From the IMG/VR virus record IMGVR_UViG_3300047678_000416, positions 1 through 22,784 of that record: DNA of 22,784 nt; one strand, 5' to 3'. The notes beneath the pieces are model-generated. The model had not been told where the DNA came from. It saw only the letters and a list, made by a program, of their open reading frames with translations, and did not search any database. The first letter of the stretch is position 1. Each line of letters opens with the position of its first letter. Shown piece by piece: positions 14,959-20,806 of the stretch. A program made the translations under genes and the position numbers. This stretch comes from a virus.

Positions 14959-17241
14959 TCACCAAATTGGACCATGCGCCTTTCGACGTTTCTTTTTGCG
15001 TCGGTTGTTTGCAGGGTTCAGAATCGCAGCGTCCGGAAGCTGGCAGCCCAGCATCGAACCAAGCATGCCATTTCCCACGCCGCAGTCCCAGAAATGATTG
15101 TCTGGCCGCTCCGGACGTTGCTCCCAGACTTCGACAGTGCGTTGGGTGTTCACGTCATGGATCATGCTGGAGTACTCCGACAGCATATGATCCGCGTACA
15201 TCGTGTGATCGCGGCCGGCGAACAGCGTCACTGCGCCGGGTGACTCCTGCGGAATCAGCAGCCGATCGCGGTGGAAACTTTTCCAGTAGTCCACATCGTA
15301 GAGAAGGTGCCGAATCGCGTCCTTTTCCTTTGGGGATCGCAACCGCCAGAATGACCCGCAGTTGTCACCGGGTTGTTTCTTCAGGTCATTGAGCGCCACT
15401 TTGGGGGGCCGAAACGACCGACCGTGAGTAGGAATCAGGCGTGCCACGAATCCCGACTTGCGGACAGCTGCCTTGACTGTTTCTGTTTCCCAGTTCGCAT
15501 CGATGCCGGCCACGTTCAGTTTCAGAATGTGTCCGTCTTCTCTCTGCCATTCCTTGGAAAAAAGCAGCGTGAACAGATCTTTGATGCCCGCGGTCAAACG
15601 AGCCTGCAGCGTGGCATGCTGAGGATACATGCTGTCGAGAGTGAGCGTGATGTCCGACAGCGAAAAGTACGTGCGGGGTTGCCCTGGCCACGTTCCGTAG
15701 GCGACAACCCAGCTGGTGGAATCTTTCGCGTGTGCGCGCACTTCGTAGAACAGGCATTTGCCCTGAACGTCGCAAAAAGCCGTAACGTATTCGGCTTCGA
15801 TCGGGACAGATTCCGCTTTCAGGTGATGCATTCGCACCGAGACTGTATCTCGATCGAGCACAGGCTGATTGTTCACTGTGAATCCGGCCGGATTGTTCAT
15901 CAGCTCGGACCAGAATCCCTGCCTGTCTCGAAAAAACCAATCCATAGCCTGTTCGAGCGGATCCAAAAACCGATCTGGATCGTAACCGTCCTTCCAGACA
16001 ATGTTGGCGCCGGACTTCATTGCCTTCATGTTCTTTTTGTAGAACTTGTGCGCGTCTGTAAGGTCTTCGTCTCGGCGGAGACTGGCTTCTCTGATCTGAT
16101 TCCATGCGAACCAGAGATCCATGGCCGTTTCATCCGGCAAAGAATCCAGAGCTGCGTGGCGCACTCCGTGCCAGTCGGGATGCTTATCGCGATCCAAAAC
16201 TCTATCCGCAACGTCACCCGGTTCGATGACCGTCATCGTCATGAGGCAAGACCACGCCTCACCGGCCCCAGGAAGCCCCGGTAACGCTGCCTGCACGACG
16301 CGTTCCCGTCGATAGCAGCTGCGTTTCGAAGCGGCGCTTTGTTCGGTCTGCGGATCATCCACAAGCCCGATTGTTGGTCGTTTCGTTTCACCGTCAATCA
16401 CAATGCGAGCGCCGCGGATCTTGCTGCTCAAAATTCCGCCGGCACGGATGACGGCACCACTCTGGCCGGACACGTCGCCGAGGCGCAGTTCGAAGTCGGA
16501 CGCGAAGACTCGGGTCCGCTCGCCACAGCAGAGTTGAGCTTTGCCACGCTGATTGACGCCTTCCAGTTCCTTAATCGGAATGCAGAGTTCCGGAAAGTCC
16601 TCCAGCAGCAGCGGATTCGTCTCGAGCTCCGTTCTGATGTCCGCAATCATTGCCTTTGCCGCTTCGTTGCTGGCGCCGATCAGCATGGCGAACGTATGAT
16701 GGCGGTACGCAGCCGCCCAGATGACGCCGCGGACACAAAGCGACGTCTTTCCCCAGCCTCGAGGGATTCCCATCGCGAGCAAAGCCCCCACAAGAACCAC
16801 CATCTGGATGAGTTCGATTAGCCGCTTGTGCACGCTGGACCACTCATGCTGAAAGGTGCCGGGAAAATACGTTTTGCAGAACCTGCCGAAGTCTCGTTCA
16901 CAGCGAGCTCGCCTCGCATGGTTCAGGGGTGCAGGAATCGAACCGATGTCGCGGCCGGCTCGCGATCGATTGCGTTCGCGGTCCGCCGCACGATCCTTGT
17001 GTTCTTCGTAGGATTGCCGCTGGAATTCCGACACTGCTGGCGACGGACTGACAGACCTATGAGCAGAAGCGGGAGAATTCGCTTTGGGCGGCTTCGTCAG
17101 AGAATTCTTTGGCTTCTTCTTCGCGGGCTTTTCGGCAGCGTTCGCAGTCCGCTTCTTCGCAGCTTTCGCAGACGCCTTTTGCGTTGGTTTTGGCGTCTGC
17201 TTTGGCTTCGAGGCTTTTGACGGTTTTTTTGAGTCGCGCAT
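14959..17241 (-). CDS. Terminase large subunit, lambda gpA type
   Basis: The packaging motor and nuclease of the phage. The core starts near RARCERDFGRFCKTYFPGTF. It then shows a Walker-A-like GIPRGWGKTS, a Walker-B-like GLVDDPQTE, and nuclease-side acidic segments AFCDVQGKCLFYEV and NVAGIDANWETETV. The C-terminus is very basic (NRRKKKRRKAHGPIW). Start is unclear: an ATG at 17295 (778 aa), the ATG at 17241 used here (760 aa, MRDSKKPS) or a GTG at 17034 (691 aa). The two longer versions add a Lys, Ala and Pro rich tail like histone H1. The tail region overlaps another plausible frame (see 17057-17248), so its reality is uncertain. Family assignment is firm. Confidence 0.9.
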   Translation of the reverse strand: MRDSKKPSKASKPKQTPKPTQKASAKAAKKRTANAAEKPAKKKPKNSLTKPPKANSPASAHRSVSPSPAVSEFQRQSYEEHKDRAADRERNRSRAGRDIGSIPAPLNHARRARCERDFGRFCKTYFPGTFQHEWSSVHKRLIELIQMVVLVGALLAMGIPRGWGKTSLCVRGVIWAAAYRHHTFAMLIGASNEAAKAMIADIRTELETNPLLLEDFPELCIPIKELEGVNQRGKAQLCCGERTRVFASDFELRLGDVSGQSGAVIRAGGILSSKIRGARIVIDGETKRPTIGLVDDPQTEQSAASKRSCYRRERVVQAALPGLPGAGEAWSCLMTMTVIEPGDVADRVLDRDKHPDWHGVRHAALDSLPDETAMDLWFAWNQIREASLRRDEDLTDAHKFYKKNMKAMKSGANIVWKDGYDPDRFLDPLEQAMDWFFRDRQGFWSELMNNPAGFTVNNQPVLDRDTVSVRMHHLKAESVPIEAEYVTAFCDVQGKCLFYEVRAHAKDSTSWVVAYGTWPGQPRTYFSLSDITLTLDSMYPQHATLQARLTAGIKDLFTLLFSKEWQREDGHILKLNVAGIDANWETETVKAAVRKSGFVARLIPTHGRSFRPPKVALNDLKKQPGDNCGSFWRLRSPKEKDAIRHLLYDVDYWKSFHRDRLLIPQESPGAVTLFAGRDHTMYADHMLSEYSSMIHDVNTQRTVEVWEQRPERPDNHFWDCGVGNGMLGSMLGCQLPDAAILNPANNRRKKKRRKAHGPIW

Positions 17242-17248
17242 GAGGCAT
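17057..17248 (-). CDS. Small Cys-rich acidic protein overlapping the terminase 5' end
   Basis: A 63-residue frame from the ATG at 17248, with CAGG about 9 bases upstream, ending at TAG 17057, in another frame than the terminase. It reads like a real protein: a helix KKTVKSLEAKADAKTNAKGV, two cysteine pairs (CESC then CERC, with 4 residues between) and an acidic helix KAREEEAKEFSDEAAQSEF. Its codons are rich in first-position G and third-position C, the usual mark of coding frames, while the terminase frame across the same bases has G mainly at the third position. If real, the terminase would start at the GTG at 17034. Both readings could also be used. Function unknown; metal binding possible. 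Confidence 0.4.
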   Translation of the reverse strand: MPHARLKKTVKSLEAKADAKTNAKGVCESCEEADCERCRKAREEEAKEFSDEAAQSEFSRFCS

Positions 17249-17325
17249 TGCAATGGGCCTGTGTGAAATGGCCACCGGGGGGAGTTCGCCGGCATGGAGC
17301 CGAACGAACTCCAGCCCGTGGCACG

Positions 17326-17808
17326 TTACGGAGTCTTCGGCAGCAGATCGCTGAAGCGGCCAAGACCGATGTCCAGTGAATCATCCGAGGTAGGTTGTGG
17401 GGCCAGTTGGGGTGCAGTGGGAGTCGGCTTGTTGATCAGCTGGTGCAGTGCATATCCGGCGATGCCCGCCACCGGCACAGCGAGCAGCGCAGCTCCAACG
17501 GCAGCGCCAGCGAGCACTTTGCCGAGGCCGCTTCCCTGCTGCCCATTGATCACGATGGGCGTTGGGTGCAGAACGTTGTCGCCGAGGATTGTATTTCCCA
17601 TGTCGTTTCCCGCCGGCTGTTCCTCAGTTTCGCCCCATGCGGTTTTCCGCACGTGGCGATTCTCGGCAGCGATGTTCTTTTCGGTTTCAGCCTGGTGATG
17701 CTGAAGTGACCGCATGCCCAGCAGGCCGGTCAGAGTCTCGATCTTCCATCGGCTGAGCGCCGCTTTCTGAATCGTCTTCAGCGGCGAGAATGATTCCGGA
17801 AAGCTCAT
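17326..17808 (-). CDS. Protein with hydrophobic segment, unknown function
   Basis: A 160-residue protein, using the ATG at 17808 with AGGA about 9 bases upstream. The N-terminal half is helical and polar (PLKTIQKAALSRWKIETL; HHQAETEKNIAAENRHVRK). Residues about 100-125 form a Gly and Ala rich hydrophobic stretch (VLAGAAVGAALLAVPVAGIAGYAL) that could span a membrane. The C-terminus is Pro-rich. A single membrane segment close to the hydrolase and protease genes would suit a holin or lysis accessory, though its location before the terminase also fits a DNA ejection protein. No family recognised. It overlaps the 3' part of the preceding gene by 122 bases. Confidence 0.65.
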   Translation of the reverse strand: MSFPESFSPLKTIQKAALSRWKIETLTGLLGMRSLQHHQAETEKNIAAENRHVRKTAWGETEEQPAGNDMGNTILGDNVLHPTPIVINGQQGSGLGKVLAGAAVGAALLAVPVAGIAGYALHQLINKPTPTAPQLAPQPTSDDSLDIGLGRFSDLLPKTP

Positions 17809-17923
17809 CAAATGCGTTCCTGCTGATCGCACCAACAGTCCGGGCAGAAAGTCTTTCGAACTTTGCCCGGTCCTGTCGATTCGATTTCAAAATTCCTCTG
17901 AGAACTTCTTCGAGCTCAGACAT
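17687..17923 (-). CDS. Small helical protein
   Basis: A 78-residue protein whose ATG overlaps the upstream TAA as TAATG. The first 42 residues form convincing helices (MSELEEVLRGILKSNRQDRA; KFERLSARTVGAIS). The C-terminal part (from about SGIILAAEDD) lies over the start of the next gene in another frame and may be a by-product. The long overlap suggests either a read-through arrangement or an old frameshift that split one gene. Role unknown; perhaps a small DNA-packaging partner, since it lies just upstream of the terminase region. Confidence 0.55.
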   Translation of the reverse strand: MSELEEVLRGILKSNRQDRAKFERLSARTVGAISRNAFDELSGIILAAEDDSESGAQPMEDRDSDRPAGHAVTSASPG

Positions 17924-18315
17924 TACTTCTGCGCGTTGGCAGGTCCTGCAATCGGAGTGGCCAGAATGCCGCTGGCGGTGCGACCTTCAACCAATCCAGT
18001 GTCTTTAAAATTTGCGACCATGGTGCCCTGCAGAGCGCCCATTGCAATGTCGCCCACATTGCGAGAGTTGCGATTGCTCGCCTGAATGTTGCCGGCCGTC
18101 TCGGTCATCATGACCTGGCCGACGCCTTCTGGAAGATCCAGTGCCATCGTCTTTGTTCCTTCATCTGGTTCAGCGGGGAGAATAATTTCGACGACGCCAT
18201 TCCCCAAAACTGGCGCAGTCACGGTTTCGACAGGTGCTGAGATTTCCGTCGGTTCCTCCGCCACATCTTCTGTGGACTGTTCTTCAGATTCCTCAACGGA
18301 TTCTTCATCGGGCAT
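17923..18315 (-). CDS. Acidic small protein, unknown function
   Basis: A 130-residue protein with AGGAG about 8 bases before its ATG, overlapping the protease gene by 11 bases. The first 40 residues are extremely acidic (many Glu, for example EESVEESEEQSTEDVAEEP). The middle has hydrophobic strands (GVVEIILPAEPDEGTKTMAL), and the last part contains Asn, Gly and Ala rich segments (IQASNRNSRNVGDIAMGALQ). The acidic N-terminus resembles DNA-mimic or internal head proteins, but nothing decisive is seen. It is coupled to both neighbours. Confidence 0.6.
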   Translation of the reverse strand: MPDEESVEESEEQSTEDVAEEPTEISAPVETVTAPVLGNGVVEIILPAEPDEGTKTMALDLPEGVGQVMMTETAGNIQASNRNSRNVGDIAMGALQGTMVANFKDTGLVEGRTASGILATPIAGPANAQK

Positions 18316-19477
18316 CGGACATACTCCTGAGCCGTTTCAGATCGAGTACAACCGGTTCACCTGGTGCGTAGGTTTCATCGTCAACGATCTTTCCGTCACT
18401 CGACAGCACGATTCGAAATGGCCGTCGTTCGAGGTCCGAGAGTCGCTTTTCGAGGCCGGAAACGCCCGGGGAATGACCGGCTGCCCCTGCTGCCCCTGCT
18501 GGTCCCGGTGGACCGGGCGGCCCGGCTGGCCCTCTCAGCTGGTCCCTGTTGGCGTCGAGCCACGCATTGACGACGGCCTCGACTTGTTCCTGATTGACGT
18601 TTTTGCCGGCCGGGCCTTGCGGTCCAGGCGGGCCGGCTGGACCAGCTGGTCCCTGTTGATAAATTGTTTGCGGAGCTAATCGCACGGGTGCGGGTTCAAT
18701 CGTATCGACGATTTTCGGAGGGCCGACCGGAATGCCAATGCCGATCATCGGCTGCTGGATCTGCGGTCTGATGCGAATCGGGCATCCTCCAGGAGGACAC
18801 CTGCGGCCGTATTGCGTCTGAATAAAAGCGACGAGTGTCTCTGCCGGCACAAATCCCGTTTCTGTACCGCGAAGATCATGGCGCGTCGCTGCGGGCCGCT
18901 CATCGACATAGTGCGTCACGATCCCGATCACTGTGGGGCCTTGTTCGGTATCGCACAGCACCGGGCCTCCGGAATCGCCTGGGATCACATGCTCGCCGTC
19001 TTCACCTCGCAAGGTGCTGTCAGAGGTCAGCGTTGCCCGGAAGCCAAACGACTCACCACTGCGGTTAAGCGCGGGACCGTAGCCGGCGACGAGTACTTGA
19101 GCTCCTGCAGGCGTGCGGTCGCTGATCGGCGTGACATTCAGTGCGGCGTCTACTTCCACAATGGCGAGATCTGCCGTGGGATGGACAAAGGTCTGTCGTG
19201 CGGCGATCCACTCCCGCCGATTCGAGACCCACACACTTCCCGGGCGATCGGCGACGACGTGGCCAGCCGTCAGAAGCGTCGAACGCCCTTCAGAGGATCC
19301 CACGCAGACGGCGGTACCGGATTCCTCGACGTGCTGGCCATTCCGCAGATAACTGATCTCGATCGGATAGACATCGGCCTGAGAGTCACCCGCACAAGCC
19401 AGCAGGCACACGACCACCGCCAGGCGTTTGAGGCACGTGGATATTTCGATCGAAATGTGTTTGGGCATGGTCCACAT
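18305..19477 (-). CDS. Exported trypsin-like protease with collagen-like segments
   Basis: The 390-residue protein starts with the ATG at 19477, which overlaps the upstream stop (TGATG) and has GGAGG 8 bases before it. Residues about 1-35 are a signal peptide: a basic start, then LAVVVCLLACAG. The S1-type triad is visible as His73 (TAGHVV), Asp103 (TADLAIVEV) and Ser169 (PGDSGGPV). Two Gly-X-Y runs follow (276-291 with GPAGPAGPPGPQ, and 316-335 with GPAGPPGPPGPAG), separated by a helix VNQEQVEAVVNAWLD. A short coiled coil (GLEKRLSDLERR) comes near the end. The collagen parts could trimerise the protease or extend it from the envelope. Placement beside a YiiX-like hydrolase suggests host-envelope attack or virion processing. 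Family certain, role inferred. Confidence 0.85.
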   Translation of the reverse strand: MWTMPKHISIEISTCLKRLAVVVCLLACAGDSQADVYPIEISYLRNGQHVEESGTAVCVGSSEGRSTLLTAGHVVADRPGSVWVSNRREWIAARQTFVHPTADLAIVEVDAALNVTPISDRTPAGAQVLVAGYGPALNRSGESFGFRATLTSDSTLRGEDGEHVIPGDSGGPVLCDTEQGPTVIGIVTHYVDERPAATRHDLRGTETGFVPAETLVAFIQTQYGRRCPPGGCPIRIRPQIQQPMIGIGIPVGPPKIVDTIEPAPVRLAPQTIYQQGPAGPAGPPGPQGPAGKNVNQEQVEAVVNAWLDANRDQLRGPAGPPGPPGPAGAAGAAGHSPGVSGLEKRLSDLERRPFRIVLSSDGKIVDDETYAPGEPVVLDLKRLRSMSDAR

Positions 19478-20154
19478 CAACGCAGCCTCCAATCTTCTGG
19501 GCAGGTGAACTCGGTCAGGTGCTGGTAAGTGCCCGATGCCACCAGTCGTCGCATCAGGCCGGCAGGAGTGAACTTCGATGGATTCTCTCGGCATAGTCGG
19601 CCAAGACGTTGCAGGACCGCTGCCAGCAGCTCGCTGCAGAACAAGGTGTCCAACTGGTTTCGCCAGAGACTAAACCGCTTCAGAATCCGAGTTCCGCTGC
19701 ACAAAGCCCCGGCCGTGTCGTAGGTGATCGGCTGTTTTTGGGTGTTTTGTCCATCACCGATGACCATTCCCATCAGCATTCGCAGCTGATGGATTTCGGG
19801 CGGGGTCAGCGAATCGAATTCGGTGAGTCGATAAACTGCCACGCGACCACCGGCGGAAACATAGTCCTGGATGCGACTTGTGATCTGATGGACTTGGCAA
19901 CCGCTGACGGGGGCTTCCGCCTCGAGGCAGGGCCGTTTGGCCAGTGTCGTTGACTCCCACCAGTAACAGGTTTTGTGGTTCGGATAAAAGCGTGGGCATG
20001 CGATCGCCACGTGCGCAGGAGCCCAACGAAAATGTCGAGGTCCGAAGAGGCTGGCGGTCTCAAGGCTGATGCCAAACGAAACGAGATCATGTCCCCAGCA
20101 GGCAAAGATATCGCCCGCATTGGGGACATATTCGGACTGATGCTTCGCTGTCAA
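19477..20154 (-). CDS. YiiX-like permuted NlpC/P60 hydrolase
   Basis: A 225-residue protein. I choose the TTG at 20154 because it overlaps the preceding stop as TTGA and has AGGAG 7 bases upstream; an ATG at 20205 would overlap the previous gene by 55 bases. The layout is that of the permuted papain-like (YiiX/YebB) family: GDIFACWGHDLVSFGI, then His48 in APAHVAIA, WWEST at about 65-69, VAVYRLT, and Cys173 in LFCSELLAAVLQRLG. The closing segment NPSKFTPAGLMRRL is usual for these proteins. Such enzymes cut amide or ester bonds in cell-wall peptides or lipids. Adjacent to the exported protease, it may act in lysis. There is no signal peptide, so it would need help to leave the cell. Confidence 0.75.
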   Translation of the reverse strand: MTAKHQSEYVPNAGDIFACWGHDLVSFGISLETASLFGPRHFRWAPAHVAIACPRFYPNHKTCYWWESTTLAKRPCLEAEAPVSGCQVHQITSRIQDYVSAGGRVAVYRLTEFDSLTPPEIHQLRMLMGMVIGDGQNTQKQPITYDTAGALCSGTRILKRFSLWRNQLDTLFCSELLAAVLQRLGRLCRENPSKFTPAGLMRRLVASGTYQHLTEFTCPEDWRLR

Positions 20155-20729
20155 GAGGTTGCTCCTGGTAAGGGGTTCGTCAGGCGCTGAAAACGGTTCC
20201 AGCATTTTCTGATGCGCCAGACCTCTCCTTCGATCCGCAGCTCAGCAATATGATCCAGTCGATAATCCCTCAACACGATGTGGCGATAGAGGCCCTGCCA
20301 GACAGGCTTCGCAGGTTTAATCAAAAATCGCTTCAGCGCTTCCAGCGGGATGACCTCGCCGGTTTCGCTGTTGCGGAACTGGGCCACTGCGGTCTGCACT
20401 TTGATCTCGATATACAACAGCGTTTCGCCGTGCTCTGTGACAAGCGCGACAAGCGGCGAGTTTTTCACTCGCTGCCCCCAGCTGCGTGACAAGGCTCGAA
20501 AGTCCGCTGGCTTCCACTCGCGCACTCTCTGGCGGTTCACTGCCCTGGAATAACGCCAGTTGATGAAGCCGTTGACATTGCAGATCTTTGCCACGCGGCC
20601 GGCGAACGGATTGTTTGTGATCCGCATGTCCGGTTCAGTCAGTGCAGTCATACCAATCGGAGCGGCGTCGCGTCTCTTAAACAAACGCCGCTCGAGTTGA
20701 CTCTGAGAAAGCAACAACTGGCCCGCCAT
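20151..20729 (-). CDS. First gene of the late operon, unknown function
   Basis: A 192-residue protein starting at the ATG at 20729 (MAGQLLLSQSQ); a GTG at 20777 and an ATG further inside are alternatives. It has a polar N-terminus and then a conserved-looking core (RVREWKPADFRALSRSWGQRVKNSPLVALVT). Strands follow (GETLLYIEIKVQTAVAQF; YRHIVLRDYRLDHIAELRIEGEVWRIRKC) that could make a small beta barrel. No motif is diagnostic. It lies right beside the divergent regulator and its operator, so its transcription likely starts close to 20800. The TTGA junction couples it to the YiiX-like gene. Confidence 0.65.
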   Translation of the reverse strand: MAGQLLLSQSQLERRLFKRRDAAPIGMTALTEPDMRITNNPFAGRVAKICNVNGFINWRYSRAVNRQRVREWKPADFRALSRSWGQRVKNSPLVALVTEHGETLLYIEIKVQTAVAQFRNSETGEVIPLEALKRFLIKPAKPVWQGLYRHIVLRDYRLDHIAELRIEGEVWRIRKCWNRFQRLTNPLPGATS

Positions 20730-20806
20730 CGTCCGATTCCGTAGTATGGAGGGGCGAGCCCGGAAAGACAAACGCACTACGCTCGCCGCGCCTCCAATCT
20801 TCGTTT

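Follow-up and report, generated by a model that had tools for sequence, protein, structure and literature searches.

What is the role of a papain-like hydrolase that a phage couples to an exported protease carrying collagen-like runs? The question is raised by two genes in an IMG/VR virus record of 22,784 bases, the whole of which was analysed and is called the window here. The minus strand of the window reads as a late operon. In this operon, a gene for a 208-aa protein is followed by a YiiX-like gene, the protease gene, two small ORFs and the genes for the large terminase subunit (TerL), the portal, the GP7-like major capsid protein and the tape measure. The original prediction described the two genes as a pair attacking the host envelope. 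Both ORFs are indeed present on the minus strand, joined by a TGATG junction at 19477–19479, where the ATG of the protease gene at 19477 overlaps the YiiX stop codon. The features of the locus are as follows.

20151–20777, minus strand: ORF directly upstream of the YiiX-like gene, 208 aa; heads the same slot in the relatives L003 and L005
19477–20154, minus strand: predicted YiiX-like permuted NlpC/P60 hydrolase, 225 aa, TTG start, with His48, Glu67 and Cys173
18305–19477, minus strand: predicted HtrA-like S1 protease with export-type N-terminus and collagen-like runs, 390 aa
19376–19477, minus strand: predicted signal peptide region, residues 1–34, from sequence and hydropathy peak
18923–19318, minus strand: S1 (Trypsin_2) domain with His73, Asp103 and Ser169, from profile match and alignment
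18599–18652, minus strand: collagen-like run 1, 6 Gly-X-Y triplets, from shuffle test
18470–18532, minus strand: collagen-like run 2, 7 Gly-X-Y triplets, aligned with the GPPGPAG runs of five related phage lineages
18308–18469, minus strand: C-terminal short coiled coil and tail (RL..LE...FR..V), common to the S1-collagen phages
17923–18315, minus strand: acidic ORF, 130 aa, start overlapping the protease gene; no confident family match
17326–17601, minus strand: ORF with one transmembrane (TM) segment, 91 aa, from an in-frame ATG at 17601, between the pair and TerL; hydropathy 2.24; no family match
14959–17295, minus strand: TerL; gpA nuclease domain, E 2.6e-18

The YiiX-Like Enzyme

The YiiX-like gene is read from a TTG codon at 20154, because this codon shares bases with the stop of the preceding gene, a TGA (overlap TTGA), and agrees better with the N-termini of relatives than the ATG at 20205. 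Numbered from this start, His48, Glu67 and Cys173 are invariant in all 25 aligned homologues, which bears out the catalytic His and Cys that had been named beforehand. Neither a signal peptide nor a TM segment was found in the protein. As a single sequence it matches no Pfam family at E-values up to 0.1, and it is therefore named YiiX-like instead of being assigned to a Pfam family. A profile search of PDB sequences retrieved 3kw0 from B. cereus at E 3.5e-5. The AlphaFold model, based on 25 sequences, has a pLDDT of 84 and a pTM of 0.83. Comparison of this model by Foldseek and VIA-align gave Z-scores of 15.4 for E. coli YiiX (2if6), 14.9 for 3kw0 and 8.5 for TseH. Because of these fold matches and the permuted order of the catalytic residues, with the His before the Cys in a papain-like fold, the protein is predicted to be a circularly permuted NlpC/P60 enzyme.

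The window protein thus resembles YiiX and 3KW0 in fold and permuted order, but it is 14–20% identical to them, is encoded by a phage, has no signal peptide and belongs to a type that is nearly always found in a cassette. E. coli YiiX was crystallized with a fatty acid, and the related LnsA is involved in lipoprotein acylation (PMC7387801). The permuted NlpC/P60 fold is also shared by the type VI secretion (T6SS) effectors TseH and Tox-Act1, which attack bacterial envelopes; Tox-Act1 cleaves PG and PE, and TseH has phospholipase activity on liposomes (PMC12994826). These are, however, injected effectors with immunity proteins, whereas the genes described here are phage genes coupled to a protease. 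In the PHROG database, the two genes of the pair weakly match phrog_9683 (“protease”) and phrog_1128, neither of which is annotated as lysis. The label of phrog_1128, which matches YiiX-like proteins, is enoyl-CoA hydratase/carnithine racemase-like and looks misleading.

The Exported Protease

The protein encoded by the second gene has a single N-terminal hydrophobic segment by hydropathy, followed by the S1 domain, a Pro-rich region, two collagen-like runs, a short coiled coil and a tail. From the sequence, the export site can be read in two ways, either as an LLAC lipobox-like motif at residues 25–28 or as a type-I (SPase I) site, SQA|D. The S1 domain matches the Pfam families Trypsin_2 (E 1.4e-9; 39.2 bits against a cut-off of 27.6) and Trypsin (E 2.6e-9), both above their cut-offs. 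His73, Asp103 and Ser169, the triad of the original prediction, are invariant in a seven-sequence alignment of S1-collagen proteins. Profile and His-Asp-Ser triad together place the protein among the S1 peptidases, and proteolysis is predicted. With the hydrophobic segment and the Trypsin_2 match, the coupling of a YiiX-like enzyme to a protease that is probably exported holds as it had been described. The nearest PDB matches of the S1 domain are DegS, DegP and HtrA (E about 1e-6). Like these, the window protease matches the S1 profile and is predicted to be exported; unlike them, it has no PDZ domain and carries a collagen/coiled-coil stalk, in place of which relatives have a thioredoxin domain and a TM anchor.

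The collagen-like runs comprise 6 Gly-X-Y triplets at residues 276–293 and 7 at residues 316–336. A run of at least seven triplets arose in 1 of 20,000 shuffles of the protease, and the score for Pfam Collagen (PF01391) is 20.2 bits, below the cut-off of 27.2. The runs are non-random, although they are short and sub-threshold for Pfam. The claim of collagen segments therefore stands as far as the runs are real and shared with other phages, but they represent one optional architecture, the combination of thioredoxin and membrane anchor being commoner. The coiled coil that had been noticed is present, though short. The AF2 model of the whole protease is poor (pLDDT 46). By inference, the stalk of the window protein probably trimerizes or extends the protease.

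Conservation of the Pair

Relatives of the pair were reached solely through TerL neighbors and planctomycete genomes. Single-sequence pattern searches of IMG/VR with the window proteins found no relative, and neither did a search of a phage collection with the same proteins. A typical YiiX member had no relative in the phage and plasmid collections, and the distant L198 type had none in the phage collection. A TerL search led to the close relatives L003 (72%) and L005 (48%), as well as to a large phage family in genomes of Planctomycetota, Lentisphaerae and related groups. With the YiiX-like protein as query, 392 Planctomycetota genomes yielded homologues at 38–48% identity, and an alignment of the planctomycete homologues led to 27 viral loci. 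Strong YiiX homologues (above 180 bits) were found only in Planctomycetota; the Victivallis phylum (289 genomes) and the phylum of G411, which is listed as Quisquiliibacterium (299 genomes), yielded none.

Clustering at 90% left 35 distinct YiiX homologues, 32 of them with a readable downstream gene. In about 27 of these 32, by hand curation, an exported peptidase gene lies directly downstream. The peptidase class varies while the pairing is constant: 11 are S1 proteases with thioredoxin and TM anchor, 5 have the window type of S1 with collagen and coiled coil, 2 are S1 alone, 5 combine an HExxH-x16-E peptidase with thioredoxin, and 4 are papain/C39-like lipoproteins. No exported peptidase was seen downstream of nine distant YiiX homologues from other contexts. 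A downstream ORF is listed for six of the nine, and the comparison of 27/32 with 0/6 gives a probability of about 1.7e-4 (Fisher-type comparison, calculated by hand from hand-entered counts). The adjacency persists down to 26–28% YiiX identity. The original prediction was to be dropped if the two genes proved rarely adjacent; instead, the pair is conserved in planctomycete phages.

The collagen form, defined by a YiiX-like gene followed by an S1 protease with export-type N-terminus, Gly-X-Y run, coiled coil and FR..V tail, was found in the window and in five other phage lineages (L176/L178/L182, L184, L185, L186/L187 and L188), and thus is a recurrent architecture. In most relatives outside this form, the protease is fused to thioredoxin and a membrane anchor, with a Pro-rich linker. 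The S1-thioredoxin proteins, for instance L177:4807-6333, also have a highly conserved C-terminal segment past the TM anchor (PPPPQAIVPETRFAPYERDTFAEAFAWAE), which is predicted to be cytoplasmic. The whole S1-thioredoxin branch has Glu at the expected position of the catalytic Asp, and the protein of L175:9886-11382 has Asp instead of the catalytic His (LTARDC).

Other arrangements were seen as well. A distant YiiX branch (L190, L191, L194 and L196) is paired with a small exported papain/C39-like protein and has a small zinc-ribbon-like gene (CxCG...CxxC) upstream; for L190, L191 and L194, the C39-like call reflects a weak PDB match, 3erv, at E 0.11. At L238:1028-2447, a distant planctomycete YiiX gene lies between a lipoprotein gene, on its upstream side, and a TM/coiled-coil gene, which seems to be another lysis-cassette-like order, without protease. 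L157 and L158, at about 200.5 kb and 236.7 kb of G033:C1, are two cassettes of one genome that agree in score and ORF lengths and are separated by about 36 kb, as if a prophage had been duplicated in tandem.

A Small Membrane Protein Upstream of YiiX

In 17 phage-type clusters, the gene directly upstream of YiiX encodes a protein of 70–120 aa in which a coiled coil comes after a single TM helix, and mostly overlaps YiiX by ATGA. All four host-chromosome clusters lack this gene, and no copy was found in one of the phages, L149. One type of this protein matches a PHROG holin (phrog_1350) at E 1e-5, and another matches XhlA at E 2.7e-4, below the cut-off; for most of these genes the similarity to holins is weak. 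The window has neither such a gene directly upstream of the YiiX-like gene nor a thioredoxin domain. The 91-aa one-TM ORF downstream of the pair might fill the role of the holin-like gene, but is a weak candidate.

Exchange of the YiiX-Like Enzyme

In three phages (L210:9108-11326, L211:9249-11383 and L212:8601-11350), a class-3 lipase replaces YiiX beside an exported S1-thioredoxin gene, and a TM/coiled-coil gene is close by. The lipases match Pfam Lipase_3 at E 1e-24 to 1e-27 and PDB lipases at E 2e-12 to 2e-15. None of these three phages has YiiX, and none of nine phages whose cassettes are of the YiiX or papain-like type has Lipase_3. In the nearest relatives of the window, L003:6834-9701 and L005:6585-9367, the slot between the gene corresponding to that at 20151 and TerL encodes three proteins: one with a TM segment, one that is papain-like, and an exported thioredoxin-S1 protein with triad. 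Their papain-like proteins, 79% alike, were called from motifs and have no Pfam or PDB match.

Because a class-3 lipase replaces YiiX in three phages, lipid hydrolysis is a likelier activity of the YiiX-like enzyme than peptidoglycan amidase activity. This replacement is the best evidence in the analysis pointing to a lipid substrate and, together with the phospholipase activity published for permuted NlpC/P60 enzymes, favors lipid over peptidoglycan as the target. The first gene had been put forward as an envelope hydrolase; its YiiX-like nature stands, and the expected activity shifts to lipid hydrolysis.

Genomic Context and Hosts

The pair of the window lies about 1 kb upstream of TerL, with two small ORFs intervening. 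Its placement upstream of the terminase was thus correctly described, but it is no general rule: the cassette lies upstream of TerL in the window, L157/L158 and L169, and after head-tail genes in L156, L160 and L164–L166. It occurs on unrelated backbones, of the gpA/lambda-portal type versus the HK97 type with TerL PF03354, and moves as a unit. In Pfam scans of four relatives of 35–42 kb (ORFs of at least 90 aa; for G399, 25 of 29 families examined), no ordinary endolysin was recognized, and no peptidoglycan hydrolase was recognized within the pair.

Pairs of YiiX with an HExxH-peptidase-thioredoxin-TM protein lie in planctomycete chromosomes at L159, L161, L162, L163 and L167, with no phage genes nearby. 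These pairs adjoin glnE, glycosyltransferase or desaturase-like genes (in L162 both glnE and a glycosyltransferase), and a third conserved gene, for a protein of 221–229 aa, follows the pair in L159, L162 and L163. The module can therefore serve some host purpose. Host homologues unrelated to lysis had been considered adverse to the original prediction; homologous pairs without phage neighbors do exist in host chromosomes and count in part against it.

A Proposed Lysis Cassette and Its Alternatives

An attack on the envelope remains the best reading of the pair. That the two enzymes form the core of a lysis, or envelope-disruption, cassette of planctomycete phages is given an even chance. This reading is favored because the parts of the set, namely a lipid hydrolase, a holin-like protein and an exported protease that mostly carries a fused thiol oxidoreductase, would suit a protein-walled envelope. 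The planctomycete wall can be a disulfide-stabilized protein structure (PMC3035269; PMC8567305), and most peptidoglycan-synthesis genes of P. limnophila are dispensable (PMC10632474). From the adjacency and overlap of the genes, the catalytic residues, the fold, the export-type N-terminus, the TM/coiled-coil partner in relatives and the swaps, we infer a lipid substrate, a protein-wall substrate, the timing and lysis as the outcome. Counting against a lysis cassette are the lack of an upstream TM/coiled-coil gene and of thioredoxin in the window, the host-chromosome pairs, the loss of the His in L175 and the Glu of the S1-thioredoxin branch.

During late expression, the protease would be exported and then tethered or oligomerized, by the collagen/coiled-coil stalk in the window and by a Pro-rich linker and TM anchor in most relatives. 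Having no export signal, the YiiX-like enzyme would at first be confined to the cytoplasm; once a holin-like membrane protein had opened the inner membrane, the enzyme would hydrolyze acyl chains of membrane phospholipids. The protease, with its thioredoxin domain in most relatives, would cut the cysteine-rich, disulfide-linked protein wall. Lysis might in this way proceed without any peptidoglycan hydrolase: the lipid hydrolase, whether YiiX-like or a class-3 lipase, would destroy the membrane, the exported and mostly thioredoxin-fused protease would cut and reduce the wall, and the catalytic parts would be interchangeable modules. This full scheme is put forward tentatively, at somewhat less than even chances.

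Such a cassette would share with the holin-endolysin-spanin cassettes of lambda, P2 and Mu its compact overlapping late-operon genes and a three-part make-up: a cytoplasmic hydrolase, an exported protein and, in relatives, a small TM protein. It differs in that a proposed lipid hydrolase takes the place of the peptidoglycan hydrolase and a protease that of the spanin, and in that the window has no TM gene directly upstream. Mycobacteriophages use lipolytic lysis enzymes together with peptidoglycan hydrolases, and their LysA/LysB lysis set likewise includes a lipolytic enzyme suited to an unusual envelope (PMC6116114). However, these phages keep the peptidoglycan hydrolase and have no protease in the set, and LysB acts on mycolic-acid lipids.

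Four other roles were weighed. Firstly, the protease and an acyl-modifying YiiX enzyme could, in infected or lysogenic cells, modify proteins or lipids of the host surface and leave the cells unlysed, as in surface remodelling, superinfection exclusion or receptor shaving. Anchoring by TM segment or lipobox, the thioredoxin fusion and host-chromosome copies without holin-like gene would fit a long-lived surface function, and LnsA works with a second membrane protein in lipoprotein N-acylation (PMC7387801). Yet phage copies lie in late operons and overlap a holin-like TM gene, YiiX has no export signal, and no other endolysin was seen in the four scanned relatives, so this role is considered unlikely.

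Secondly, the YiiX-like protein could be a conventional endolysin, i.e., a peptidoglycan amidase or endopeptidase, with the protease as a spanin-like accessory for disrupting outer layers. It belongs to the NlpC/P60 superfamily, no other endolysin was recognized, and peptidoglycan has also been reported in planctomycetes, according to a title cited in PMC10632474. Permuted members nevertheless act on lipids where tested (PMC12994826), and replacement by a class-3 lipase is unexpected for a peptidoglycan enzyme, which makes this role rather unlikely.

Thirdly, the phages may carry a captured host module for envelope maintenance, consisting of a protease, a thiol oxidoreductase and an acyl enzyme, as cargo unrelated to release. 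The chromosomal pairs, three of which share the third gene, agree with this, but in phages the pairs are part of structural operons whose backbones are unrelated, their domains have been swapped, a TM gene has been added, and adjacency is kept down to 26–28% YiiX identity; this reading is improbable. Lastly, one or both proteins might be carried in the particle to open the envelope at infection, as some copies lie among head-tail genes and Bacillus phage Izhevsk has a YiiX-like amidase among its tail genes (PMC7685451), but a signal-peptide protease is not readily packed into cytoplasmic virions and the cassette shifts between operon positions as a unit, so that entry enzymes, set aside as the main reading because the protease is exported, are highly improbable.

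Implications for Planctomycete Phages

The planctomycete phage found described in the literature is chronic and non-lytic (PMC10945688), and a literature search retrieved no paper linking YiiX-like enzymes or proteases with phage lysis of planctomycetes. If the lysis-cassette reading is true, it would explain a family that is labelled “moron” or “unknown” in phage databases. It would also speak directly to the dispute about how planctomycete envelopes are held together, and supply sequences with which to probe it. A cassette of lipid hydrolase, protease and thiol reductase would then show phage release adapted to a protein-based wall.
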